A stretch of 64,000 nucleotides of DNA from Blautia sp. (GTDB lineage: Bacteria > Bacillota > Clostridia > Lachnospirales > Lachnospiraceae): positions 1-64,000 of the forward strand of contig JARIAR010000036.1 of assembly GCA_029257805.1 (NCBI GenBank). Reading direction: 5' to 3'. The notes below the pieces were generated by a model. The model worked only from the letters and a program-made list of their open reading frames with translations. It was not told where the DNA came from and searched no databases. Positions 43,621 through 54,702 of the stretch are shown piece by piece; within the stretch, counting starts at the first letter, position 1, and every line of letters begins with the position of its first letter. The position numbers and the translations under genes are program-made.

Positions 43621-44141
43621 TGAAAACATACGACAGTAAAGAAGCGTTGAAAGAAGAAATCAAGAAAACCTATGCCAAGTATATTGCTGAGTTTGATAAT
43701 ATTTCGGAAGATATGAAAGATCTCCATGCAGAAGATGCGGACCGTACTCCGGCAGAGAATCTGGCTTATCAGGTTGGCTGGACAACTCTTGTCCTTAAGT
43801 GGGAACAGGATGAGAAAAATGGTCTGGAAGTAAAAACACCTTCTGACCAGTTTAAATGGAATCAGCTTGGGGCATTGTATCAATGGTTTACAGACACTTA
43901 TGCAGGATTGTCTCTTCATGAGCTTAGGGTAAGGTTGGATGCAAATATCCAAGGGATTTATGAAATGATTGATTCTATGTCTGACGAGGAGCTTTTTGTT
44001 CCCCATAAACGTAAGTGGGCAGATGATGCTACGAAATCTGCGGTTTGGGAAGTTTATAAATTCATTCATATTAACACCGTGGCACCTTTCGGAACTTTCC
44101 GTACAAAAATCAGAAAGTGGAAGAAGCTTATGTTGTATTAG
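43620..44141 (+). CDS. ClbS/DfsB-family DinB-like four-helix protein
   Basis: 173 residues from ATG 43620 (AAAGGAGG 6 bases upstream). Family pieces: YDSKEALKEEIKKTYAKYIA, DRTPAENLAYQVGWTTLVLKWE and the C-terminal HINTVAPFGTFRTKIRKWKK. ClbS hydrolyses colibactin and protects E. coli producers; most Firmicute relatives (DfsB-like) have no known substrate. Here it follows the SdpR/SdpI pair, so this short stretch may be a self-protection cassette (inference). Its end overlaps the convergent regulator relic by 14 bases. Confidence 0.85.
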   Translation: MKTYDSKEALKEEIKKTYAKYIAEFDNISEDMKDLHAEDADRTPAENLAYQVGWTTLVLKWEQDEKNGLEVKTPSDQFKWNQLGALYQWFTDTYAGLSLHELRVRLDANIQGIYEMIDSMSDEELFVPHKRKWADDATKSAVWEVYKFIHINTVAPFGTFRTKIRKWKKLMLY

Positions 44142-44730
44142 GATAGATATTACAATATTGTTGTAATTGCTTAGTTCTTGTAAAAGTTTTTGATACTCCT
44201 TGGCTGCTCTCCATAAATGCAAATGCATTACCATTTTCCATTTCTTCTTGTAGCATAGATAAAATGTGTTCTGAGAAAAAGTTTGGTTCCAAAATTTTTA
44301 GATGTCTATAAAGTGGAATTTCTTTAGGGTTCCATTTTTTGCTCATTGCTATCAATGTAGATTTGCGTGTGTCTAAAAACCTGTCCTGTGCTGAATAAAG
44401 ACTAGCAATACGTTCTTTGTTATCTATTGAAGAGGAGGGCAATGTATTGATAAGTTCTTCTGCATTTTGACCATGTGATAGCTGTTCATAAAACGCTTCA
44501 AACACTTTTTGATATGGTTCTGACTCTGATACATTATAAAGAATTAATGCTCCAGTTAAATGATTTTATCAAGTTCATCTACAGAATTAACAATTTACAC
44601 GTCACTTAAATCATCTTGAAATGATAGAAGTGTATTAAGATCCGTTTTTAATAATCTTGCCAATGCTGGAAGAAGCGTTATATTGGGGGAACCGCTTCCC
44701 GTTTCCCCAACTTTTATTTCACTCGGCACT
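44128..44730 (-). pseudogene. XRE-family regulator, broken
   Basis: Read on the minus strand from about 44730, the sequence starts in the middle of a helix-turn-helix (GETGSGSPNITLLPALARLL, KTDLNTLLSFQDDLSD), hits an in-frame TAA, continues as IVNSVDELDKII, shifts frame near 44560, and then runs as a 125-residue C-terminal helical domain to 44128. The first ~30 codons of the HTH are missing. At least three lesions mean it is dead. The pattern matches Lachnospiraceae XRE regulators with a long helical tail. Only the last piece (44128-44505) looks like an open gene on its own. Confidence 0.7.
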
Positions 44731-44738
44731 CTTTTCTA

Positions 44739-44927
44739 TCAATCAATTTTGCCAACAAAGCGGTAGAAAATCTCAATTTCCTGTTCTCTGATACCATCAG
44801 GAGATTCGACAGCTTCATGTACTACAATTTTTTCAATCACAGTATTCAGCAGTTCGGCGGTCAATTCTGTAGGGCTTGAATATTGCTTGATGAGTTCCAT
44901 CCACTTTTCAGCATTGGATGTGCATTT
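44739..44927 (-). pseudogene. large serine recombinase, C-terminal relic (DUF4368 type)
   Basis: The minus-strand frame ending at TGA 44739-44741 encodes about 60 residues, including AEKWMELIKQYSSPTELTAE and LLNTVIEKIVVHEAVESPDG, then IEIFYRFVGKID. This matches the C-terminal tail of large serine recombinases of Tn4451/TnpX-related elements. The catalytic resolvase domain is absent. It shows that a conjugative or mobilisable element once integrated in or near this island. Confidence 0.75.
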
Positions 44928-45346
44928 GCATGACCTGTGGGCGGGTCAGCGCATGGAAAGATTGTCCCACTTTTGAGGAGCTGGCAGTGCTTTTTGAGGG
45001 TAGTACAGCCAGCGGTGCAGAACGAGCCTATTGCAAAGCCGTGGAGCACTTGGCCTGCCTGTTGGCAGAAACCGGGGTAATTCACATGATCCGGCTGAAA
45101 CGAAAATCCCAGACCAAACGCAAAAAGAAAGTCGCCGCTGCTGTCTACCTGTATCAGGTGGAGAACGACGGCGAATGGGGCGAGATTTCGTTGAATTTTA
45201 AAAACAGCACAGCAGAAATTATCCGTCTGGCCGATTGGGATACCACGCTTTCTAACATCTATGCTAAGCAGTTGATTCGCTATCTTCTGAAATGCGAGAA
45301 TGACAAACTGCTCAAGGAAACTATGTTTGCACCCGAAGAAATTTGA
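44918..45346 (+). CDS. unrecognised reading frame, probably mobile-element remnant
   Basis: 142 residues, GC-rich compared with the surroundings. The N-terminal ~10 codons overlap the recombinase relic on the other strand and there is no good ribosome site, so the true 5' end is probably lost. The body is charged with a Lys/Arg cluster (RLKRKSQTKRKKKVAAAVYL) and no membrane segment. I do not recognise the family; it is most likely the C-terminal part of a protein carried by the same element. It ends 108 bases before the AraC gene. Confidence 0.4.
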   Translation: MCICMTCGRVSAWKDCPTFEELAVLFEGSTASGAERAYCKAVEHLACLLAETGVIHMIRLKRKSQTKRKKKVAAAVYLYQVENDGEWGEISLNFKNSTAEIIRLADWDTTLSNIYAKQLIRYLLKCENDKLLKETMFAPEEI

Positions 45347-45454
45347 TGTATTTTCTACTTAGAGATATTTTGGGCTATCAGGTATTAATTTTATTGAAAT
45401 TATCTGATATTATAATTTGCTTTGTATCAAACAAAAAGTAAGGTGAAAATAGCT

Positions 45455-46423
45455 ATGAAAAAGACAAGTATTATGGAAAATGCCTATAGTGGCTTTGACT
45501 TTTCGAAAATCAGCACATCTGGAGATGCACAAATTTACCATTTTCAGAATGAAACTGGTGATGGAGAAATGTGCTGTTATGACCTGATAGACGGTATACA
45601 GCTCTCCTATAACAAGTTGAATATGACGACTGCTTACCAGAAGATAGAAACGAAAAAAGGCATACTGCAAATCGATCACTGCATGGATGGCTGCTACGAA
45701 TTTGAATTGGCAGGGAAAGAACATGCTTTTGTCAGTAAGGGAGATTTGAGTGTTATTGACCTTGGTAAAGTTCACTTTGAAGACTCCTGCATTCCAACGG
45801 GGCAGTATTTTGGATTAACCTTTTTTATTGATATTGCAGAAGCGCAAAAATCTCTGGATGCCTGCTTTCCTTATGGCAATATTGACTTAGAAGAAATACG
45901 GCAGAAGCTATGCCAGAATGGGGCTGCTATGCTCCTGCGTTCCCGCAAAGAAATAAATCATATTATTCAAGAACTGTACGAGATAAATGGAGAAATCAGG
46001 ATACCCTATTCCATTCTGAAAATTCTGGAACTTTTTCTGTTTCTGAAAAAAGTAGATCGGTGTGATGCCAAAAAAATTACATCATTTTCTGATATTGTGT
46101 ATAAGGCAACACAGGAATGTTATCGGAGCATTCTCCATAATCCCTTTGAAAGAGCCTCTATTTCTGAACTGGCAACACGCTATGCTATTTCTGAGTCCAG
46201 CCTAAAACGATGTTTCGTTGCAATTACTGGAAGCTCTATTGGAAGCTTCGCAAAGTCTACCTGTTTGGAGGCATCTGCCGAGCTGCTTCTTCAAAAACCG
46301 AGTATGACCATTGGTGAAATCTCTGAGCTTTCCGGATATCTGAATCAAGGGAAATACAGTTCTGCATTCAAAGCCTGCTTTGGAGAAACACCGCAGCAAT
46401 ATCGTAAAAATCATTTGACCTGA
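45455..46423 (+). CDS. AraC-family regulator of the ECF/ABC transport operon
   Basis: 322 residues from ATG 45455 (AAGGTGA upstream). The N-terminal 220 residues are a variable sensor domain; the C-terminal ~100 residues are the two-helix-turn-helix AraC domain (ISELATRYAISESSLKRCF and IGEISELSGYLNQGKYSSAFKACFGETPQQYRK). It is like the YbtA/PchR group that governs siderophore genes. It directly precedes, in the same direction, an ECF plus YbtP/Q-like transport operon and very likely controls it in response to the imported compound. Confidence 0.88.
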   Translation: MKKTSIMENAYSGFDFSKISTSGDAQIYHFQNETGDGEMCCYDLIDGIQLSYNKLNMTTAYQKIETKKGILQIDHCMDGCYEFELAGKEHAFVSKGDLSVIDLGKVHFEDSCIPTGQYFGLTFFIDIAEAQKSLDACFPYGNIDLEEIRQKLCQNGAAMLLRSRKEINHIIQELYEINGEIRIPYSILKILELFLFLKKVDRCDAKKITSFSDIVYKATQECYRSILHNPFERASISELATRYAISESSLKRCFVAITGSSIGSFAKSTCLEASAELLLQKPSMTIGEISELSGYLNQGKYSSAFKACFGETPQQYRKNHLT

Positions 46424-46471
46424 TTGGAGCAAAATAATACCTAAGAGGTTATATAAATACGGAAAACCTAC

Positions 46472-46480
46472 TGCTATACT
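46472..46480 (+). promoter_or_regulatory. extended -10 promoter before the transport operon
   Basis: TGCTATACT (46472-46480): extended -10 without a good -35, as expected for an activator-dependent promoter. Transcription from here would pass through the hairpin at 46513 before reaching the S-component gene. Confidence 0.45.
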
Positions 46481-46512
46481 ATTAACAAGGTAGACGGGCA
46501 ACGGACAAAAAA

Positions 46513-46536
46513 GGAGACCGACTGGTCTCCCTTTTT
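46513..46536 (+). terminator. terminator between the AraC gene and the transport operon
   Basis: GGAGACC (46513-46519) / GGTCTCC (46524-46530), 4-base loop, then CTTTTT. It ends the AraC transcript, or acts as an attenuator for the operon if the promoter at 46472 is used. Confidence 0.7.
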
Positions 46537-46545
46537 CGATCCATA

Positions 46546-46565
46546 GGTTAGCGCTGTCTAACTAG
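46546..46565 (+). promoter_or_regulatory. dyad upstream of the S-component gene
   Basis: GGTTAG (46546-46551) and CTAACT (46558-46563) form an inverted repeat with a 6-bp centre. It lies directly between the terminator and the ribosome site. The half-sites resemble those of DtxR-type iron regulators (AGGTTAG/CTAACCT) but the spacing is wider, so an AraC or other site is also possible. Confidence 0.4.
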
Positions 46566-46585
46566 TAATTTAGGAGGATGATCTT

Positions 46586-47191
46586 ATGGAAGTAAAAAGG
46601 AGTATGTCTGTAAAAGACATTGTAACAGCAGCGGTGATGATGGCATTGTTCTATGCAATCGCTTTTACAATTGGTATGGGAACGGTAGCAGTCCCCATTA
46701 TCTACTTGTATGGAACAGCAGGTATCGAAATGTTTTTAGGTGCAATCTTCTATTTGGTGGCTGCAAATCGGATCAATAAGCATGGTCTTTTATTCATCTG
46801 GGTCATGATTTACGCCATCATTACTGGTGCCATGGGATATATGTTTATGGTCCCTTATTTTGTAGTAGTTGCTTTGCTGTGTGAACTATCCATGATTGGA
46901 AAAGATGCTTATCGGAAACCAATCCGTAATCTAATTGGATGGAGTATTTATGGAATTGGAATGTTCATGGGAATCGGTGTTCCTTGCTATGTTGCATGGG
47001 ATAGTTATCAAGAGCAGGCTCTTGCCAGTGGGTTTGCAGACGCCACTGTAAAACTCCAATATGATATGGTTTCTTCCCCTGCACTGATGCTTGTTGGTAC
47101 CGCAGTAACGGTTGTTCTGGGCGCAATCGGTATTTTTCTGGCACAGAAAATCTTGAAAAAACATTTTGAAAAAGCAGGTATTTTGGGATAA
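46586..47191 (+). CDS. ECF transporter S component (MptD/Trep_Strep-type)
   Basis: 201 residues, about six hydrophobic segments (SVKDIVTAAVMMALFYAIAF, then FLGAIFYLVAANRINKHG). The length, the early Lys-Asp-Ile amphipathic stretch and the downstream T and A genes fit the MptD-family S component, a substrate-binding membrane protein of group II ECF importers. The substrate is not known; the association with YbtP/Q-like proteins suggests a metal chelate or cyclic cofactor (inference). Ribosome site TTAGGAGG. Confidence 0.8.
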   Translation: MEVKRSMSVKDIVTAAVMMALFYAIAFTIGMGTVAVPIIYLYGTAGIEMFLGAIFYLVAANRINKHGLLFIWVMIYAIITGAMGYMFMVPYFVVVALLCELSMIGKDAYRKPIRNLIGWSIYGIGMFMGIGVPCYVAWDSYQEQALASGFADATVKLQYDMVSSPALMLVGTAVTVVLGAIGIFLAQKILKKHFEKAGILG

Positions 47192-47914
47192 ATGAGAGAG
47201 AATAGTGGACATAGATTTGAAAAGGTGGGTGGTATTGGCTGTCTGCTACTGACGCTTTGTGCCTGTCTGGTATCTATTTTTACAAAAAGCTATTTTTGGC
47301 ACGCCCTGTTTGTGCTTTGGCTGGTAATTCTTTTTACATATTTAGGATTTTTGAAGCAAGGCATTGTATATTTAGCGGTATATGTATTTACGGTTGTTTG
47401 GCTGACCACAGCAGTTCCGAGAGGGATATTATTTCCATCGCCTATGCTTCTTGGAATGATTTACAAATTTATTGTTCCAGTTATGGCTGCATACCTGACT
47501 TTTCATATTCCATCCGGTAAGCTGATTGCCGTATTCCAGAAATGTGCCATGCCCAGAACGGCTCTTTTGATTTTAGTTGTTATTATACGTTTTATTCCAA
47601 CAATTTCAGAAGAAACTCGAGCAATTTGGGAAGCCATGCGTGTGCGAGGCTTTGTTGGAAGCAGTGGAAAAATTTTTTTGCATCCGCTTAAAACCATGGA
47701 ATATGCGGTTGTTCCCCTGATTTTCCGCTCTATCAAGGTTGCTGATGAACTTGCAGCAGCCTCAATCGTACGAGGAATCGAAAAACCTGGTAAAAAAGAA
47801 AGCTATTACTCTATCAGCATCAGCAAAACAGATGTTGTGATACTGGTAATCAGTGGATGCTTGCTGGTGTTAGCATTATATGAAGGGAGGTGCAACTTAT
47901 GCAGAGTGTTTTGA
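47192..47914 (+). CDS. ECF transporter T component (CbiQ/EcfT family)
   Basis: 240 residues, starting directly after the S-component stop. Five to six hydrophobic segments; the coupling-helix motif with Ala-Arg-Gly-type signature appears as AMRVRGFVGSSGK and the second as AASIVRGIEKPGKK, the two conserved helices that contact the ATPases. It transmits ATP-driven movement to the S component. The ATPase gene overlaps its end by 16 bases. Confidence 0.88.
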   Translation: MRENSGHRFEKVGGIGCLLLTLCACLVSIFTKSYFWHALFVLWLVILFTYLGFLKQGIVYLAVYVFTVVWLTTAVPRGILFPSPMLLGMIYKFIVPVMAAYLTFHIPSGKLIAVFQKCAMPRTALLILVVIIRFIPTISEETRAIWEAMRVRGFVGSSGKIFLHPLKTMEYAVVPLIFRSIKVADELAAASIVRGIEKPGKKESYYSISISKTDVVILVISGCLLVLALYEGRCNLCRVF

Positions 47915-49380
47915 GGATTACTAATGTGGGATTCTCTTATCATGAAGGGGAAGAACAACTTAAAAAGGTGAGTATAAATGCTTCCAAAGGAGAATGTATT
48001 GCAGTAATTGGCGGCTCCGGCTGTGGAAAGTCCACCCTGACAAGAGTGATTAACGGTTTGATTCCCTCCTTTTACTCGGGAAAGCTGAGTGGCGATGTCA
48101 ATATTGATGGTATCGACCTAAAAACAATGGCGTCATGGGAAATAGGTGCTAAAATCGGTAATGTTTTTCAGGATCCGAGAAGCCAGTTCTTTTCAAGCGA
48201 AGTAACGGGTGAAATTGCATTTGGATGTGAGAACTTGGGTATGTCTCATTCGGATATTCAGCAAAGAGTCCATCAAACCATTCATTCTATGAAAATCGAA
48301 TCTCTGGCAAAAGCAAGCATTTACACCTTGTCATATGGTATGCGGCAAAAGGTGGCAATCTGCTCTGCAAAGGCCATGAATCCTGAAATATATGTTTTTG
48401 ATGAGCCATCTGCTAATCTGGATCTGCAATCCACTCTTTTACTGGCAGATCTGATTCAAGAGTTAAAATCAGAAGGTAAAACCATTATCATTGCAGAGCA
48501 TCGGCTGTTTTACTTAAAAGGAATCGCAGACAGGTATCTGCTAATGGAAAATGGGAGTATTTCCAAAATCTATTCTGCTGCGCAGATGCAGAATCTTGAT
48601 TCAGACTATATGAACAGGAAAGGCCTGCGCTCCATGAATTTAAAGGATATTTCCGTTAATAAAGAAATTCCTGCTATTTCTGGGACATCTTTATCTGTAG
48701 AAATCAAAAATTTGTGTAAGTCCTATGGAAGTAAAGCCATATTAAAAGATGTGAGTTTCCAATATGACGGAAATGAAATTATTGCATTGGTCGGAGAGAA
48801 TGGCATTGGTAAGAGTACTTTGGGCAAGGTGATGGCAGGGCTTACAAAGGAAAGTGACGGTCAAATCCTCATAGATGGTAGACCAGTAAGTCACAAGAAA
48901 AGGATTGGGAAAATTTGGTATATCCCACAGGATCTGGACTCTCAGCTGTTTGGAGAAAATCTTGTGGATGAACTGACCAGCGGACTCAAAAGCAGTATAG
49001 GAGAAACACAAAAAGCAGAAGCAATTCTTACACAATTGGGGCTTTTTCCCTTCAAAAGTAGGCATCCTGCTACATTATCAGGAGGTCAGAAACAAAGACT
49101 TGTTCTGGGCGTTGCAATGATGCGGGAAACGCCGATGATTATTCTGGATGAGCCTACATCTGGATTGGATTTTTGCAGTATGGAAAAAGTGCGGAAGCTG
49201 ATTTTAGAGCAGCAGATCAAAGGGACAAAATTTTTGATTATTTCTCATGACATCGAATTTATTGCACGAACCTGCAATAGAGTTCTGAAAATTGAGAGAG
49301 GGCGCATTACGGAGGATTACTATCTTCACGATGTGGCTGATTTACTGAACTCAATGGGATACAAGGAGGGAAAGATATGA
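47899..49380 (+). CDS. ECF transporter A component, two fused ATPase domains
   Basis: 493 residues from ATG 47899 (GGGAGG 8 bases upstream). First domain: Walker A GGSGCGKST, Q-loop FQDPRSQFF, signature LSYGMRQK, Walker B VFDEPSANLD. Second: GENGIGKST, signature LSGGQKQR, Walker B ILDEPTSGLD. The Q-x-D-P-x-x-Q-like Q-loop is typical of EcfA/CbiO. Fusion of both ATPases in one chain is common in MptE-like systems. It powers the S/T pair next to it. Its stop overlaps the next start (ATGA). Confidence 0.92.
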   Translation: MQSVLRITNVGFSYHEGEEQLKKVSINASKGECIAVIGGSGCGKSTLTRVINGLIPSFYSGKLSGDVNIDGIDLKTMASWEIGAKIGNVFQDPRSQFFSSEVTGEIAFGCENLGMSHSDIQQRVHQTIHSMKIESLAKASIYTLSYGMRQKVAICSAKAMNPEIYVFDEPSANLDLQSTLLLADLIQELKSEGKTIIIAEHRLFYLKGIADRYLLMENGSISKIYSAAQMQNLDSDYMNRKGLRSMNLKDISVNKEIPAISGTSLSVEIKNLCKSYGSKAILKDVSFQYDGNEIIALVGENGIGKSTLGKVMAGLTKESDGQILIDGRPVSHKKRIGKIWYIPQDLDSQLFGENLVDELTSGLKSSIGETQKAEAILTQLGLFPFKSRHPATLSGGQKQRLVLGVAMMRETPMIILDEPTSGLDFCSMEKVRKLILEQQIKGTKFLIISHDIEFIARTCNRVLKIERGRITEDYYLHDVADLLNSMGYKEGKI

Positions 49381-51092
49381 GCATACTGAAAAAACATGTT
49401 GGCCAGATTGTCATGTCAGTATTGGTTGCAGTCCTTGGCGTTTTCTGCGGCGTTCTTCCCTATTTTGCTGTGGCAAAAATCGTCGAAGCTATTGCATCTG
49501 GAGTCACAGACTGGACAATGTATAAAAGCCCAGCCTTTATTATTTTATTTGGCCTTTTGGGAAGTGTCATTTTTCATCAGATCTCAACACTGACCTCCCA
49601 TAATCTTGCTTTCCGTGTGATTGAGGATACAAGAAAGGAACTCGCAAAAAAATTCAGCAGACTTTCCATGGGTGAAATTGAGAAAAAAAGTAGTGGGGAA
49701 TGGACGCAGTTCATGGTGCAGACACTGGATAAAATGGAACAGCCCATCGCACATGTAATACCAGAAGTAATTGCCAATGTACTGATTCCCATCGTGCTGG
49801 TCGTTGTCATATTTTGTATGGACTGGCGAATCGGAGTGGCCAATCTGGTAACATTGCCACTCGGCTTTTTATTTTCCTGCCTTATGATGAAGGGTTACGA
49901 AGAAAAATCCCGTAATTACCAGAGAGCAGCAAAAAAACTAAACAGCACGATAGTAGAATATATCCAGGGAATTCAAGTTATTAAAGCATTCAACAAATCA
50001 GCATCTTCTTATGGAAAGTTTGTGGATGCGGTGAATGACAATCGAGACAGTATGCTAAACTGGTATTTAAGTGTTTGCTTTTATATGACAGCAACCATGG
50101 AGGTATTCCCCTGCACACTGCTCTTTGTCCTTCCGGTATCCCTACTTCTTTATATGAAAGGCAGTATTGCATTGGGAACGCTGATTATGTGCGTTCTTCT
50201 TGCATATGCTTCCTATAAGCCGCTGATAAAAGCCATGAGCCACGCTGATACTATGGCTAATGTTCGGATCATTTTCGATGAAATCCGTGCTGTTATGAAG
50301 CTACCTGAATTACAGCGTGGAAAGAATGTTCAGAAGATTGATTACTCTGATGTGCAATTTGAAAATGTGACTTTCGGATACTCTTCCCAAAAGCCTGTGC
50401 TGAAAGATCTCTCCTTTCATGCAAAGGAAGGACAACTGACCGCCGTTGTTGGATACTCCGGAGGAGGAAAATCTACAATTCTTAAGCTGATTGCTGGTTA
50501 CTGGAATGTTGATTCGGGGAAAATTCACATTGGCCAGGCTGATATGAAAGACATTCCTTTAGAACAAAATATGGAACTTGTCACTTATGTATCTCAGGAA
50601 AACTATCTATTTTCCAAGAGTATTCTGGAGAATCTGAGAATGGCGAAAGCAGATGCTGATATAGAGGAAATTAAAGAAGCTTGTAAAAAAGCAAGTTGTC
50701 ATGATTTCATTATGCAGCTTCCAAATGGTTATGATACCGTTATCGGAGAGGAAGGCAATACACTTTCCGGTGGAGAAAGGCAGAGAATTACCATTGCACG
50801 GGCTTTACTGAAGGATAGTCCGATTGTTCTTCTTGATGAGGCTACTGCCTATTCTGATCTGGATAACGAGGCAGAAATTCAGAAATCAATTGATGAATTG
50901 GTAAAGAATAAAACCGTAATCATGGTTGCCCATCGGCTTTCAACTGTGATCCATGCGGATAAGATCATTGTGCTTAGCGGAGGAACAATTGAAATAGAAG
51001 GGACGCATAAGGAGCTGCTGAATCGGAGCGAAACCTATCGGAAAATGTGGGAATCTCACATCGGTGCGTACGGAGGTGAGAAAAATGCTTAA
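49377..51092 (+). CDS. exporter-fold ABC protein, YbtP-like (first of pair)
   Basis: 571 residues: a six-helix membrane domain (1-320) and an ATPase domain with Walker A GYSGGGKST (about 357), signature TLSGGERQR, Walker B VLLDEATAYSD and switch His in AHRLST. The D-loop is unusual (AYSD instead of SSLD). Together with the next gene it resembles YbtP/YbtQ and IrtA/IrtB, which have the exporter fold but import iron-siderophores. The genetic linkage with an ECF importer and AraC regulator supports import; export cannot be excluded from sequence. Confidence 0.85.
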   Translation: MSILKKHVGQIVMSVLVAVLGVFCGVLPYFAVAKIVEAIASGVTDWTMYKSPAFIILFGLLGSVIFHQISTLTSHNLAFRVIEDTRKELAKKFSRLSMGEIEKKSSGEWTQFMVQTLDKMEQPIAHVIPEVIANVLIPIVLVVVIFCMDWRIGVANLVTLPLGFLFSCLMMKGYEEKSRNYQRAAKKLNSTIVEYIQGIQVIKAFNKSASSYGKFVDAVNDNRDSMLNWYLSVCFYMTATMEVFPCTLLFVLPVSLLLYMKGSIALGTLIMCVLLAYASYKPLIKAMSHADTMANVRIIFDEIRAVMKLPELQRGKNVQKIDYSDVQFENVTFGYSSQKPVLKDLSFHAKEGQLTAVVGYSGGGKSTILKLIAGYWNVDSGKIHIGQADMKDIPLEQNMELVTYVSQENYLFSKSILENLRMAKADADIEEIKEACKKASCHDFIMQLPNGYDTVIGEEGNTLSGGERQRITIARALLKDSPIVLLDEATAYSDLDNEAEIQKSIDELVKNKTVIMVAHRLSTVIHADKIIVLSGGTIEIEGTHKELLNRSETYRKMWESHIGAYGGEKNA

Positions 51093-52839
51093 GTTGATGA
51101 AAAAGCTTTATGAGATCGCGGGGGATGAATCAAAAAAAATTAGCAAGATGCTGATATTTGAGATTCTGAAAAGTATCTTTGAAGGCTTTATGTTAGGATC
51201 GGTCATGCTCCTATTGTATCGAGTATTTCAGAATTTATTTGAACATCGGCTGATTACCTGGGCAGATATCATGCTTGTATTTGGAGTCGCACTTTTTAGC
51301 GTCATTGGGAAAATATTCTGTGCATATAAGGCAGACTGCAACAAATATATTGCAGCCTACCGGATTGGGGCAGAAAATCGACTGACCATCGGAGACAAAC
51401 TGAAGCATGTCCATATGGGCTATTTTAACACCAATCGCCTGGGAGACATTTCCGGAGGCTTGACAACTGTGATTGGAGATTTGGAAACTGTAGGTATTAC
51501 CATAATAGAGACTCTTTTTGTAGGTGTAATTCAGACAGCGATTATGGCACTGTTTATGCTACCCTTTGATTTTCTGTCTGGTCTCATTATCCTTGTAACG
51601 CTTGTGCTTGGAATATTTTCCAATATTTTCTTCCAGAAAAAAGAAGATCAGCTTACGAAAAGGCTTCAAAAGCTAAAGTTGAACCTTAACGCAAAAACAC
51701 TGGAATATGTAAAAGGAATCAGTGTCATTAAAGCCTTTGGAAAAGGAGAGAAAATGCGCTGTGAATTGGATGAGAGCATTTCTGAAAACAGAGAAGGATT
51801 TTTAAAAGTCGAAAAAACTGTCGCACCTGCACTACTCCTTTCCCTTGGTATTTTTAAGGTGGGGACCTGCCTGATCATCTTATCTACTATCTTTCGATTC
51901 TGCTCCGGGCAACTTCTTCCATACAAAGCGGTCATGTTGATTGTAGCAAGCTTCATTGTCTTTGCTGGCTTTGAAATGGCAGAGAGTATGCAAAATGTTC
52001 GAGGAATTGCTGTACAAAATCTGGAGGAAATCTCGAAATTGAGAGATCTTCCGGTCATTGCAGAAGGAACGAAGAATACCATGAAGCAGGCTGAAATCAA
52101 GGTGGAACATCTGGATTTTTCCTATGAAGAAAAGCCATTGTTTAAGAACATCAATCTTTGTATTCCGGAGGGTAAAACAACAGCTATCATCGGAAGTTCA
52201 GGCAGTGGTAAGACAACCCTATGCAATCTGATTGCCCGATTTTGGGACGCAGATAATGGACAGGTACAGATTGATGGTACTGATGTAAAAGATTATCAGT
52301 ATGATGCTCTACTCTCCAATTTCAGCTTCGTATTTCAGAATGTATATTTGTTTGAGGATACAGTCAAAAATAACATCAAATTCGGAAATCCCAGCGCCAC
52401 CGATGAGGAGGTAATAAATGCAGCTAAAAATGCCAGATGCCATGATTTTATCATGGCACTTCCACAAGGCTATGATACTATGCTGCAAGAGGGAGGCACA
52501 AATTTGTCCGGCGGTGAAAAGCAGAGAATCTCCATTGCCAGAGCCATGCTCAAACCCAACAGAATTGTCATACTTGATGAGGCTACCTCCAGCATTGACC
52601 CTGAAAATGAAGAACAGTTAAACCTCGCACTGAAGCACTTGCTATCAGGAAAAACAGTGGTGGTTATTGCCCACAAACTGGAAACAATCCGTTCTGCAGA
52701 CCAAATTGTTGTATTAAATAATGGATCGGTAGAGAGTTGTGGTGCCCATCAAGAGCTTCTACAACAGTCGGCAATTTATCAACATTTTCTATCTCAACGG
52801 GAAAAAGCAATGAACTGGAAAATTGATAATAATTCATAA
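51085..52839 (+). CDS. exporter-fold ABC protein, YbtQ-like (second of pair)
   Basis: 584 residues from ATG 51085 (GGAGGTGAG upstream, 8-base overlap with the previous gene). Membrane domain followed by an ATPase domain: Walker A GSSGSGKTT, signature NLSGGEKQR, Walker B VILDEATSSID, switch His in AHKLET. Both partners therefore keep catalytic residues, unlike the degenerate pair at 7.3-10.8 kb. Last gene of the operon; a terminator follows at 52997. Confidence 0.86.
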   Translation: MLKLMKKLYEIAGDESKKISKMLIFEILKSIFEGFMLGSVMLLLYRVFQNLFEHRLITWADIMLVFGVALFSVIGKIFCAYKADCNKYIAAYRIGAENRLTIGDKLKHVHMGYFNTNRLGDISGGLTTVIGDLETVGITIIETLFVGVIQTAIMALFMLPFDFLSGLIILVTLVLGIFSNIFFQKKEDQLTKRLQKLKLNLNAKTLEYVKGISVIKAFGKGEKMRCELDESISENREGFLKVEKTVAPALLLSLGIFKVGTCLIILSTIFRFCSGQLLPYKAVMLIVASFIVFAGFEMAESMQNVRGIAVQNLEEISKLRDLPVIAEGTKNTMKQAEIKVEHLDFSYEEKPLFKNINLCIPEGKTTAIIGSSGSGKTTLCNLIARFWDADNGQVQIDGTDVKDYQYDALLSNFSFVFQNVYLFEDTVKNNIKFGNPSATDEEVINAAKNARCHDFIMALPQGYDTMLQEGGTNLSGGEKQRISIARAMLKPNRIVILDEATSSIDPENEEQLNLALKHLLSGKTVVVIAHKLETIRSADQIVVLNNGSVESCGAHQELLQQSAIYQHFLSQREKAMNWKIDNNS

Positions 52840-53259
52840 AAACCAATCTTATCTGTTTTAAATTATCGAGAATCCTCACTTAGGCAAACGAATCATATTC
52901 GTTTTAGTTCAGCTGTACAGGTAAAACCAAAATCTCTAAACAGGGGACGCTACATATTGTCTGCCTGGATGATTCTGACAATAGAATAAAATAGAGTCGC
53001 CGATGTAAGCAAGTTACAAACTACTCACATCGGCGATTTTAGTTTCTTTTTAGTTAAATTCACAGGAAATAAGCTTTTTCCCACTTATTTACAGCAGGAG
53101 TTGATACACCTAAAATAGCAGAGGAAATTTTAAGACACAATGGAGTGATAATGAAATTTCTTGTTTATTAAATTAACTATAAGTTAATTTTGTGTTGGTC
53201 ATTTTGTTGTCAGCAAAACGGCTTGGAACAAAAGAAATGATAAGTTGGAACACTCCCGC
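52840..53259 (+). other. intergenic region after the transport operon
   Basis: No gene. It holds the terminator at 52997-53055, an AT-rich palindrome AATTAAC-TATAA-GTTAATT (53171-53189), and a short open stretch near 53097-53171 (AGVDTPKIAEEILRHNGVIM...) that looks like a gene tail without a start. The minus-strand ABC-2 permease ends at 53260. Confidence 0.5.
52997..53055 (+). terminator. terminator of the transport operon
   Basis: Perfect 10-bp stem TCGCCGATGT (52997-53006) / ACATCGGCGA (53027-53036) followed by TTTTAG and a second T-rich run. Confidence 0.85.
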
Positions 53260-53856
53260 TTATTTTGGTATATTTATACGAAAAGAGATAAAAATAGAAA
53301 TAAGATTCAATATCAGCGCTGTTAAAATTGCCGTGAATGGAAGTAAGTGCAGTGTATTTAGTGAAATTTCAGGAAGGATTTCTTTAAGTAAGGATCCTGC
53401 AACAGCAGAAAGCGTTATAAATATAATATAAATGATTCTGCCTTTTTGCACACCAAATCGAAACATAATAGGTGTATTGATTGCGAGAAACAAAAGTCCG
53501 CAAAAAATTGAAAAAAGAATCATAGAGGAATTTGTATGCACATGTTCATGCTGAACAATAGACATAATAAATTTTGCTGTCGTAAACAATATAGCAGTAC
53601 CGATGATGCTGAGATATCCAATGATATATTTGCTCAAAATAATTTCTTTTCTGGAATAAGGCATCATTACGGCAAGTTCGTTCCACTTTGATTGTTCATC
53701 ATAAGCCATTGCCGTCATAGGAAGCATTGCTCCGATCAGAATGGCGATGGATGCGATTGATATATTTCCTGTAACAGCCATGAGAGGAATGATGATTAAA
53801 ATCAGTTTCATTTGTTTTACAAGAACAAGAAAATCTTTTATTAGTAATCCTTTCAT
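53260..53856 (-). CDS. ABC-2 type permease
   Basis: 198 residues with about six hydrophobic segments; the pattern MKGLLIKDFLVLVKQMKLIL, YDEQSKWNELAVMMPYSRKEI and the late IIYIIFITLSAVAG matches ABC-2 permeases (ABC2_membrane_5 group). It begins directly after the ATPase stop (TAAATG) and forms the membrane half of a YtrA/BcrA-like transporter. Substrate unknown; such systems respond to cell-wall antibiotics in Bacillus. Confidence 0.85.
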   Translation of the reverse strand: MKGLLIKDFLVLVKQMKLILIIIPLMAVTGNISIASIAILIGAMLPMTAMAYDEQSKWNELAVMMPYSRKEIILSKYIIGYLSIIGTAILFTTAKFIMSIVQHEHVHTNSSMILFSIFCGLLFLAINTPIMFRFGVQKGRIIYIIFITLSAVAGSLLKEILPEISLNTLHLLPFTAILTALILNLISIFISFRINIPK

Positions 53857-54702
53857 TTAGAAATCCTCCTTTGCGAGAAAAAGAATAATGTCTTCCAGTG
53901 TAATTCTTTCTTGTTGAAAAGCATGGCTAATCTGGTCTTTGCTAACAAGAATATCGTATCCGTAGCTTGTTTTCCTACGGCGGATCACGGCGTCCTCCGG
54001 AATTTCCTTAATTGCATCACTAGAAAGTTTTATGATGGCATAGCGGTCAAGGAGAATATCTTTTTCTTCAGATAAGATCAGTCGTCCTTTGTGGAGAAAA
54101 GTGATGTAATCACAGATTTTTTCCAGATCGCTGATGATATGGGAAGACAGAAGAATAGAATGTGATTCATCGCGGGTAAACTCGTTAAATACATTTAGGA
54201 TTTCATCTCGTATCATAGGATCCAGACCGCTAGTTGCTTCATCCAGAATCAGTAATTTTGGTTGGTGAGACAGAGCAACTGCAATTGCAAGTTTCATTTT
54301 CATTCCACGGGAGTATTCTTTGATCTGCTTTTGTTGCGGAAGATGAAACCTTCTAAGATATTCTTCATAGACAGTTTGCTCCCATTTGGTATATGTGTTT
54401 TTCATAATCTGCCCTACATCTTTTGCATTTAAAATTTCTGGAAAACATGCATCATCCATTACGATTCCAATATCCTGTTTTAGCTGGGAAAATTCCTTTG
54501 TATGGTTAGATTTGCCAAATACGGATACAGAACCACTGTCAGGCTGAAGAGCATTCATGATCAGCTTAATCGTGGTGCTTTTCCCTGCTCCGTTTTCCCC
54601 TACAAGTCCCATGATGGTACCTGCCGGAAGAGAAAAACTGATATTATCCAGAATGAAATCTGAATAGATTTTTGTTATGTTTCTTACTTCAATTGCATTC
54701 AT
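53857..54702 (-). CDS. ABC transporter ATP-binding protein
   Basis: 281 residues. Walker A GENGAGKST, signature-type YSRGMKMKLAIA, Walker B LLILDEATSGLD and switch His in LSSHIISDLEKI; a C-terminal ~60-residue extension follows, usual for this subfamily (BcrA/YtrB-like). Ribosome site GAGGAGGA overlaps the GntR gene end. It powers the adjacent ABC-2 permease. Confidence 0.92.
   Translation of the reverse strand: MNAIEVRNITKIYSDFILDNISFSLPAGTIMGLVGENGAGKSTTIKLIMNALQPDSGSVSVFGKSNHTKEFSQLKQDIGIVMDDACFPEILNAKDVGQIMKNTYTKWEQTVYEEYLRRFHLPQQKQIKEYSRGMKMKLAIAVALSHQPKLLILDEATSGLDPMIRDEILNVFNEFTRDESHSILLSSHIISDLEKICDYITFLHKGRLILSEEKDILLDRYAIIKLSSDAIKEIPEDAVIRRRKTSYGYDILVSKDQISHAFQQERITLEDIILFLAKEDF

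Follow-up and report, generated by a model that had tools for sequence, protein, structure and literature searches.

We identified a six-gene transport operon in a 64,000-nucleotide stretch of Blautia sp. DNA (GenBank assembly GCA_029257805.1, contig JARIAR010000036.1, positions 1 to 64,000 of the forward strand; hereafter the window). The operon lies at 45455-52839 on the + strand and encodes an AraC-family regulator, the S component, T component and fused double ATPase of an energy-coupling factor (ECF) importer, and two exporter-fold ATP-binding cassette (ABC) subunits, X1 and X2. With a probability of about three in four, it is a receiver-only operon that, under iron control, takes up a foreign ferric siderophore of the equibactin type. 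Five observations are the basis for this reading: the gene content, the identity of the operator, the orthology of the operon to the transport part of producer clusters, the lack of any condensation-domain match in the host genome, and the kinship of the exporter-fold pair to YbtPQ and IrtAB.

All six genes are co-directional at the places given in the first-pass annotation, and all six reading frames are open. The assignment to the ECF class follows from the family signature and fold of the S component, a CbiQ-type T component and two ECF-type ATPase domains. The AlphaFold2 model of the S component (P0002) has a pLDDT of 92.1 and its top PDB match is an ECF S component; its predicted role is substrate capture. 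For the double ATPase (P0004), ECF_ATPase_1/2 are the best NCBIfam matches, yet below cut-off, and cbiO exceeds its cut-off. The ATP sites of X1 and X2 had been described as intact, and Walker A, signature, Walker B and H-loop indeed look so when read from the translations. We found no biosynthetic nonribosomal peptide synthetase (NRPS) genes and no adjacent DtxR gene beside the operon in the window.

Producer clusters and proposed receiver genomes

The nearest operons occur in five genomes of the class (loci L154, L156, L157, L159, and L275 with L144). They keep the gene order, with the AraC gene at the same place as in the window, and their proteins are 58-60% (AraC), 69-72% (S), 59-64% (T), 57-60% (double ATPase), 72-75% (X1) and 65-68% (X2) identical to those of the window. 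At two of them (L159/L273 and L157/L274), the operon directly follows an equibactin-type cluster. This cluster comprises, in this order, a DtxR gene, an exact copy of the operator described below, and genes for a type II thioesterase, a phosphopantetheinyl transferase, an AMP ligase and two NRPSs. The Pfam domains, which come from the L273/L159 set only, are condensation, AMP-binding and carrier in the first NRPS, and TubC docking, condensation, AMP-binding, methyltransferase, carrier and thioesterase in the second. A saccharopine-dehydrogenase-like reductase gene and then a hydrolase gene separate the NRPSs from the transport operon. The first NRPS of L274 appears split into two frames (641 and 531 amino acids), so this cluster may be damaged. 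A MATE-type gene stands directly after X2 in all five nearest operons (Pfam on L159) and is a candidate siderophore exporter.

A more distant operon from Lachnospiraceae bacterium MGBC000145 (L196, S identity 57%) follows NRPS, methyltransferase, reductase and hydrolase genes. Nine of ten neighbouring condensation-type proteins carry DxxxxDxxS, which we take to be the heterocyclisation motif, and lack HHxxxDG; the protein of L105 shows the reverse. This suggests heterocyclisation domains in the nine, and thus thiazoline or oxazoline products. The orthologs that end NRPS clusters, together with the EqbA-type operator, support the earlier proposal of iron-siderophore uptake.

To describe the linkage of the two transporter types, we collected PF09605 matches, the family of the S component. 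Among 391 genomes of the class, 56 contain such matches (49 above cut-off), and seven matches lie in the host genome. We fetched 110 stretches with 113 distinct S loci, the window excluded; matches weaker than about 1e-24 and genome G531 (short contig) were left out. At least two exporter-fold ABC genes belong to the operon at 88 of the 113 S loci, and at 70 of the 87 that lie away from stretch ends. The T component is found at 106 loci, an ECF-type ATPase at 107 and at least one exporter-fold ABC gene at 91, and 8 of the 25 loci without two exporter-fold genes are at an edge. As a control, we looked within about 8.5-9 kb on each side of other ECF S (PF12822) loci of the host genome and found exporter-fold ABC genes at none of five. 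A sixth PF12822 match (contig C14) has no pair; it is below cut-off and reads like another membrane enzyme, and for this reason it was excluded from the control. Of the seven PF09605 loci in the host, six include the T component, ATPase and pair, and the seventh is on a 3.9 kb contig. Linkage of ECF and exporter-fold genes is the rule for the PF09605 S family, beyond chance, and on this point the wording of the first-pass annotation is not supported.

The same ECF-plus-pair arrangement is found on a mobilisable plasmid of Corynebacterium glucuronolyticum. Condensation domains are present in the stretch of 8 of the 88 pair loci, and MATE-like genes in 25 of the 110 stretches. Some variants were also observed. 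In the stretch from the Anaerococcus prevotii plasmid pAPRE01 (L190), which lacks an ECF set, a YbtPQ-like pair is accompanied by a condensation-domain protein and an ABC importer of the peptide/nickel type. On a Clostridiaceae plasmid, the pair adjoins AraC alone. Three related host-genome operons (L051, L053, L221) have TetR-like genes, named by reading, upstream in place of AraC.

Named genomes contributed 16 orthologous loci (S identity 51-57%), including those of Emergencia timonensis, Eisenbergiella tayi, Anaerotignum neopropionicum and Eubacterium callanderi. All 16 have the order AraC, S, T and double ATPase, with a complete pair behind in 11 and a DtxR gene following in 10. The contig of L196 ends before a pair would be reached, L198 and L208 lack one directly behind, and the pair is broken or short in L200 and L206. 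L044/L045 of the class-wide set are apparently the same contigs as L200/L210, which places these two loci in both counts.

We found no match to the condensation domain PF00668 in the host genome, which is 94.7% complete, in agreement with the earlier idea that a foreign compound is used. PF00668 was searched in 46 of the 56 genomes with a PF09605 match, and 24 of these 46 carriers gave none, including G759, G742, G622, G725 and G659, each with at least three S loci. Of the five genomes with the closest operons, G602 and G776 carry the biosynthetic cluster, and G622 and G759 gave no PF00668 match. G542 has only two partial matches (E 4.9e-8 and 2.7e-7). The transport operon is repeatedly found without synthesis genes. 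Since the host seems unable to make a siderophore of this kind and the closest relatives of its operon sit inside producer clusters, it most likely lives off the iron carriers of its neighbours. With seven S loci in a genome that gave no condensation-domain match, a single gut bacterium might, as a tentative reading, respond to more than one foreign siderophore and use a separate AraC or TetR sensor for each.

Predicted operator and candidate regulators

The pattern GTTAG-N6-CTAAC has one match in the window, ahead of the S gene, against 0.03 expected; 3 of 100 shuffled sequences gave one. A DtxR-like dyad had been proposed for this operon. A metal-repressor-type operator does stand there, of the EqbA type and not of the classical DtxR type. 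The half-sites of the classical IdeR consensus are spaced by 1. Those of the window are 6 apart, and the classical DtxR/IdeR box was therefore rejected and the EqbA operator compared, which fits. According to the accessible part of PMC3672683, EqbA binding requires a 36-bp palindrome with the centre GTTAG-ATGTAT-CTAAC, and the operator was tested by electrophoretic mobility shift assay, in which Fe2+ or Zn2+ strengthened the binding and Mn2+ did so to a lesser degree. The operator core of the window is the same as that of EqbA.

The host genome (2.6 Mb) holds 8 exact sites, compared to 2 for the reversed pattern. Four of them precede ECF-plus-pair operons (contigs C27, C38, C53, C66). Of the remaining four, one precedes a YbtPQ-type pair near which no ECF genes were seen (C1), one is 34 bases ahead of a CydDC-like ABC pair (C39:5062, L271), one directly precedes a ZIP metal transporter gene (C65:121861; L219, L224) and one a methyltransferase-like gene (C34). 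The site before the ZIP gene suggests a wider metal regulon. The 110 stretches contain 75 distinct sites versus 3 reversed ones; 27 of them directly precede S, 9 an exporter-fold gene, 14 another gene of the operon and 17 some other gene, and 8 are elsewhere.

At all 16 named-genome loci, the core is located between AraC and S. Alignment of 13 distinct copies shows it to be invariant and enclosed in a palindrome of 15-bp arms, in which 10 of the 15 pairs vary on both sides and 98.5% of the cells are paired. By our own reading, this palindrome abuts or overlaps a -10-like element, and a T run comes after it. It may serve as an extended operator, as a terminator or as both, and operator and attenuator may be one element in these loci. 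The extended palindrome was rejected as a general rule: the arms beyond the core match at 3.4 of 10 positions on average at the 75 sites (chance 2.5), which makes the long form chiefly a trait of a single ortholog group and of eqb.

Two DtxR-family proteins are encoded in the host genome (contigs C44 and C35), with 48% and 44% identity to the DtxR protein adjoining ortholog L199, and one of the two genes is near a feoB-like gene (named by reading). Both proteins carry DACxxEH, whose cysteine, from residue positions that we assume, is presumably the iron-type cysteine. A cysteine of the DtxR-family repressor is linked to the iron response (PMC3672683). Judged by sequence, the two proteins are candidate repressors of the operon. 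The AraC protein P0001 is presumed, by analogy, to be an activator that senses the ferric chelate; YbtA and PchR are the precedents for AraC-type sensing (PMC3672683).

The features of the operon and its surroundings are listed in Table 1. The candidate activator box ATTTGACCTGATTGGAGCAAAA has the same sequence in the ortholog L154 (S identity 72%) and is partially retained in L156, L157, L159 and L275. The leader (46484-46586) has a folding z of -2.93. A different inverted repeat plus T run is present in the same AraC-S intergenic region of L154 and L159.

Table 1. Coordinates of the operon, its regulatory elements and neighbouring features
Feature	Position	Strand	Evidence or remark
3' remnant with DUF4368	44742..44921	-	PF14287 74.1 bits
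AraC-family regulator P0001	45455..46423	+	PF12833 59.5 bits
Candidate activator box ATTTGACCTGATTGGAGCAAAA	46413..46434	+	overlaps 3' end of AraC gene; identical in L154, partially retained in four other orthologs
Putative -10 element TATACT	46475..46480	+	read from sequence
Terminator-like hairpin GGAGACC-GACT-GGTCTCC plus T run	46513..46536	+	between AraC and S; sequence
Predicted EqbA-type metal-repressor operator, core GTTAG-N6-CTAAC	46547..46562	+	23 bases ahead of S start
ECF S component P0002, Trep_Strep/MptD family	46586..47191	+	PF09605 132.3 bits, TIGR02185
ECF T component P0003, CbiQ family	47192..47914	+	PF02361 38.2 bits
Fused double ECF-type ATPase P0004	47890..49380	+	two ABC_tran stretches
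Exporter-fold ABC subunit X1 P0005, YbtP/IrtA-like	49377..51092	+	fused transmembrane and nucleotide-binding domains, PF00664 + PF00005
Exporter-fold ABC subunit X2 P0006, YbtQ/IrtB-like	51064..52839	+	fused transmembrane and nucleotide-binding domains, PF00664 + PF00005
Covarying palindrome around the operator	about 56 bases, L195-L210, e.g. L201:9922-9977		invariant GTTAG-N6-CTAAC core

The DUF4368 domain, which we take to be a terminal domain of large serine recombinases, makes the remnant upstream of the operon a sign of past mobility. GC skew is low over 44000-54500, which fits an insertion. Recombinase- or relaxase-like genes were read near several ortholog loci, and Pfam Relaxase was found in L273. 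A plasmid search returned no near DNA match to the operon, and the S protein matched one plasmid record at 28%. Among viral contigs, two records gave the same partial match at a contig end.

Direction of the exporter-fold pair and rival explanations

We compared the membrane domains of X1 and X2 alone with the PDB. X1 scored highest with YbtP (76.8 bits), followed by IrtA (56.9), CydD (48.5), MsbA (38.8), TM288 (36.0), YbtQ (33.7) and Sav1866 (25.5). For X2, YbtQ was the top match but weak (28.6 bits), with YheH next (24.8) among four matches in total. Tandem P-glycoproteins and similar two-unit proteins lead both full-length lists because two domains add up; when single units only are considered, YbtP is first for full-length X1 (313 bits).

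We also built a FastTree tree (LG model) of 175 sequences, with 80 first and 80 second subunits besides the window's own two. IrtAB came from two actinobacterial genomes and was identified by reading and by a long frame that matches PF08021, and the exporters were few (MsbA, MdlA, MdlB, CydC, CydD and an MdlAB-like pair of the window, named by reading). In this tree, 74 of the 80 first subunits and X1 join YbtP and IrtA with a support of 0.996. The same number of second subunits and X2 join YbtQ and IrtB, and the second-subunit core has a support of 0.97. The YbtPQ/IrtAB clades exclude MsbA, MdlAB, CydDC and the MdlAB-like pair of the window, and also the pairs of L147, L148, L151, L152, L165 and host contig C39; the C39 pair groups with CydDC despite having the exact operator. 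As judged from these sequences, the pair is kin of YbtPQ and IrtAB. This agrees with the first-pass annotation, and the refuting outcome that it named, a firm placement of both proteins among drug exporters, was not obtained with this small exporter sample.

From these data we infer the ligand class, the direction of the pair, the sensing by AraC and the repressor that acts, and propose the following mechanism. With iron in good supply, a DtxR/EqbA-type repressor from a gene outside the operon would occupy GTTAG-N6-CTAAC and prevent transcription. Under iron shortage, and with a ferric thiazoline siderophore of foreign origin at hand, the AraC protein would sense the chelate and activate transcription. 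The S component would capture the ferric chelate, the module of T component and double ATPase would carry it inward, and the YbtP/YbtQ-like heterodimer would act on the same chelate. The ECF module would be the main importer because of equibactin genetics: in S. equi, eqbHIJ was needed for most of the equibactin-dependent iron accumulation (PMC3672683). The pair is somewhat more likely than not a second, exporter-fold importer of this chelate. The strongest argument that it is kept to receive, and not to export a home-made product, is indirect: the operon recurs without synthesis genes.

Export of the spent ligand by the pair is less likely than import. In the corresponding rival explanation, which we consider possible but rather doubtful, the pair works as a pump for efflux or for recycling of the ligand: the ECF module imports the ferric siderophore as sole importer, iron is freed inside, and the empty ligand is pushed out. 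Such a division could be compatible with receiver genomes. In its favour, deletion of eqbKL in S. equi did not prevent equibactin-dependent iron toxicity, and the conditioned medium of the mutant was two-fold less active (PMC3672683). However, the pair groups with the importers YbtPQ and IrtAB, it is kept in genomes without an NRPS condensation-domain match (none in the host; 24 of 46 carriers), and the MATE-type gene after the five nearest operons could do the export. Heme or another non-siderophore metal complex is an unlikely cargo. ECF heme importers are known, and an iron-type operator alone fits any iron source, but two of the five nearest orthologs end thiazoline-type NRPS clusters and condensation domains occur in the stretches of 8 of the 88 pair loci.

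It is very improbable that the operon is a functionless, decaying leftover of a lost siderophore cluster. The recombinase remnant upstream and the absence of biosynthetic genes would fit, whereas the six open frames, the catalytic motifs that look intact, the retained operator and the complete sets at six of the seven host PF09605 loci do not. A vitamin ECF importer that merely adjoins an unrelated multidrug exporter pair is, if anything, slightly less probable still. Both protein types are common, the best NCBIfam matches of X1 and X2 are generic (CydD, HepA) and below cut-off, and with single units only, full-length X2 fits Sav1866 (246 bits), MsbA (240) and TM288 (238) slightly better than YbtQ (236). 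Nevertheless, pairs accompany 88 of 113 PF09605 S loci versus none of five PF12822 loci in the host, and the membrane domain of X1 scores only 22-36 bits with drug exporters, compared to 77 with YbtP.

Several observations weigh against a receiver-only siderophore operon with an importing pair. The join of X2 with YbtQ and IrtB has a support of only 0.307, and the split of the whole group from CydDC one of only 0.678. The eqbKL deletion phenotype in S. equi weakens import by the pair. The exact core is near the operon at only 42 of the 113 loci, and the five nearest operons have variants or none between AraC and S (a one-sided variant in L154). The AraC protein had been assigned to the YbtA/PchR kind; its helix-turn-helix part aligns with YbtA by BLAST (27% over 84 residues), and nothing beyond residues 236-318 does. 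At 94.7% completeness of the host genome, a missed NRPS is possible, and the small chance of heme or another chelate as cargo also counts here.

Beyond this operon, we suggest only tentatively that an ECF module and a YbtPQ-like pair together form a receiving unit of two transporters for thiazoline siderophores, in many cases controlled by an EqbA-type operator, and that this unit would serve siderophore piracy by Firmicutes on a large scale.

Comparison with known systems

The architecture itself is already known, from equibactin (2008), from a C. difficile island and, as an ECF importer beside an equibactin-like NRPS, from a 2025 Staphylococcus survey. What looks new is that the operon occurs as a receiver only, that it does so in several copies, and that the operator is shared. 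We found no report of a receiver-only ECF and YbtPQ operon, nor of the sharing of the operator, in the literature, where coverage of subscription journals and preprints was limited. Siderophores of strict anaerobes are little known, and the available part of PMC6814731 calls their synthesis rare in such organisms. The operator and the signature of S gene plus pair provide a genome-mining handle for thiazoline-siderophore uptake in Firmicutes. In the part of PMC12971057 at hand, three transporter markers are named (TonB receptor, FecCD and periplasmic binding protein); they belong to other families, and we infer that they would miss an ECF-plus-pair system. The same source describes cheaters that keep only the transporter genes for another metallophore. 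It also becomes testable why an ECF importer and an exporter-fold pair would serve one siderophore, and which way the pair pumps.

The closest known system is the equibactin locus eqbA-N on ICESe2 of Streptococcus equi (PMC3672683, seen in part). As in the window, a permease/permease/ATPase set, eqbHIJ, stands beside the YbtPQ-like eqbKL, whose products are 28-30% identical to YbtPQ, and the EqbA operator shares the GTTAG-N6-CTAAC core. By our own reading of the gene descriptions, not by alignment, eqbHIJ is an ECF set. The gene kinds of eqbA-N match the clusters at L157 and L159. In contrast, the window has no biosynthetic genes and no adjacent DtxR gene beside its operon, and has an AraC regulator.

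The element 023_CTn1 of Clostridioides difficile RT023, as far as it is described in the accessible part of PMC6814731, holds two ABC proteins, an AraC protein, an ABC ATPase, a cobalt-type ECF protein and a membrane protein in one run, like the window. It differs in gene order, in a thiazolinyl imide reductase that follows and in its equibactin-like cluster; this comparison is by annotation only. In Staphylococcus lugdunensis, an ECF importer is reported beside an equibactin-like NRPS (PMC12709192, in the part available); it is likened to our operon by description, and unlike the window it is a producer system.

YbtPQ of yersiniabactin and IrtAB of mycobactin are exporter-fold heterodimers like the pair of the window, X1 corresponding to YbtP/IrtA and X2 to YbtQ/IrtB. 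An import model for YbtPQ is given in PMC10967856 (seen in part). Compared to both, the pair in the window is linked to an ECF importer and lacks the siderophore-interaction domain of IrtA.

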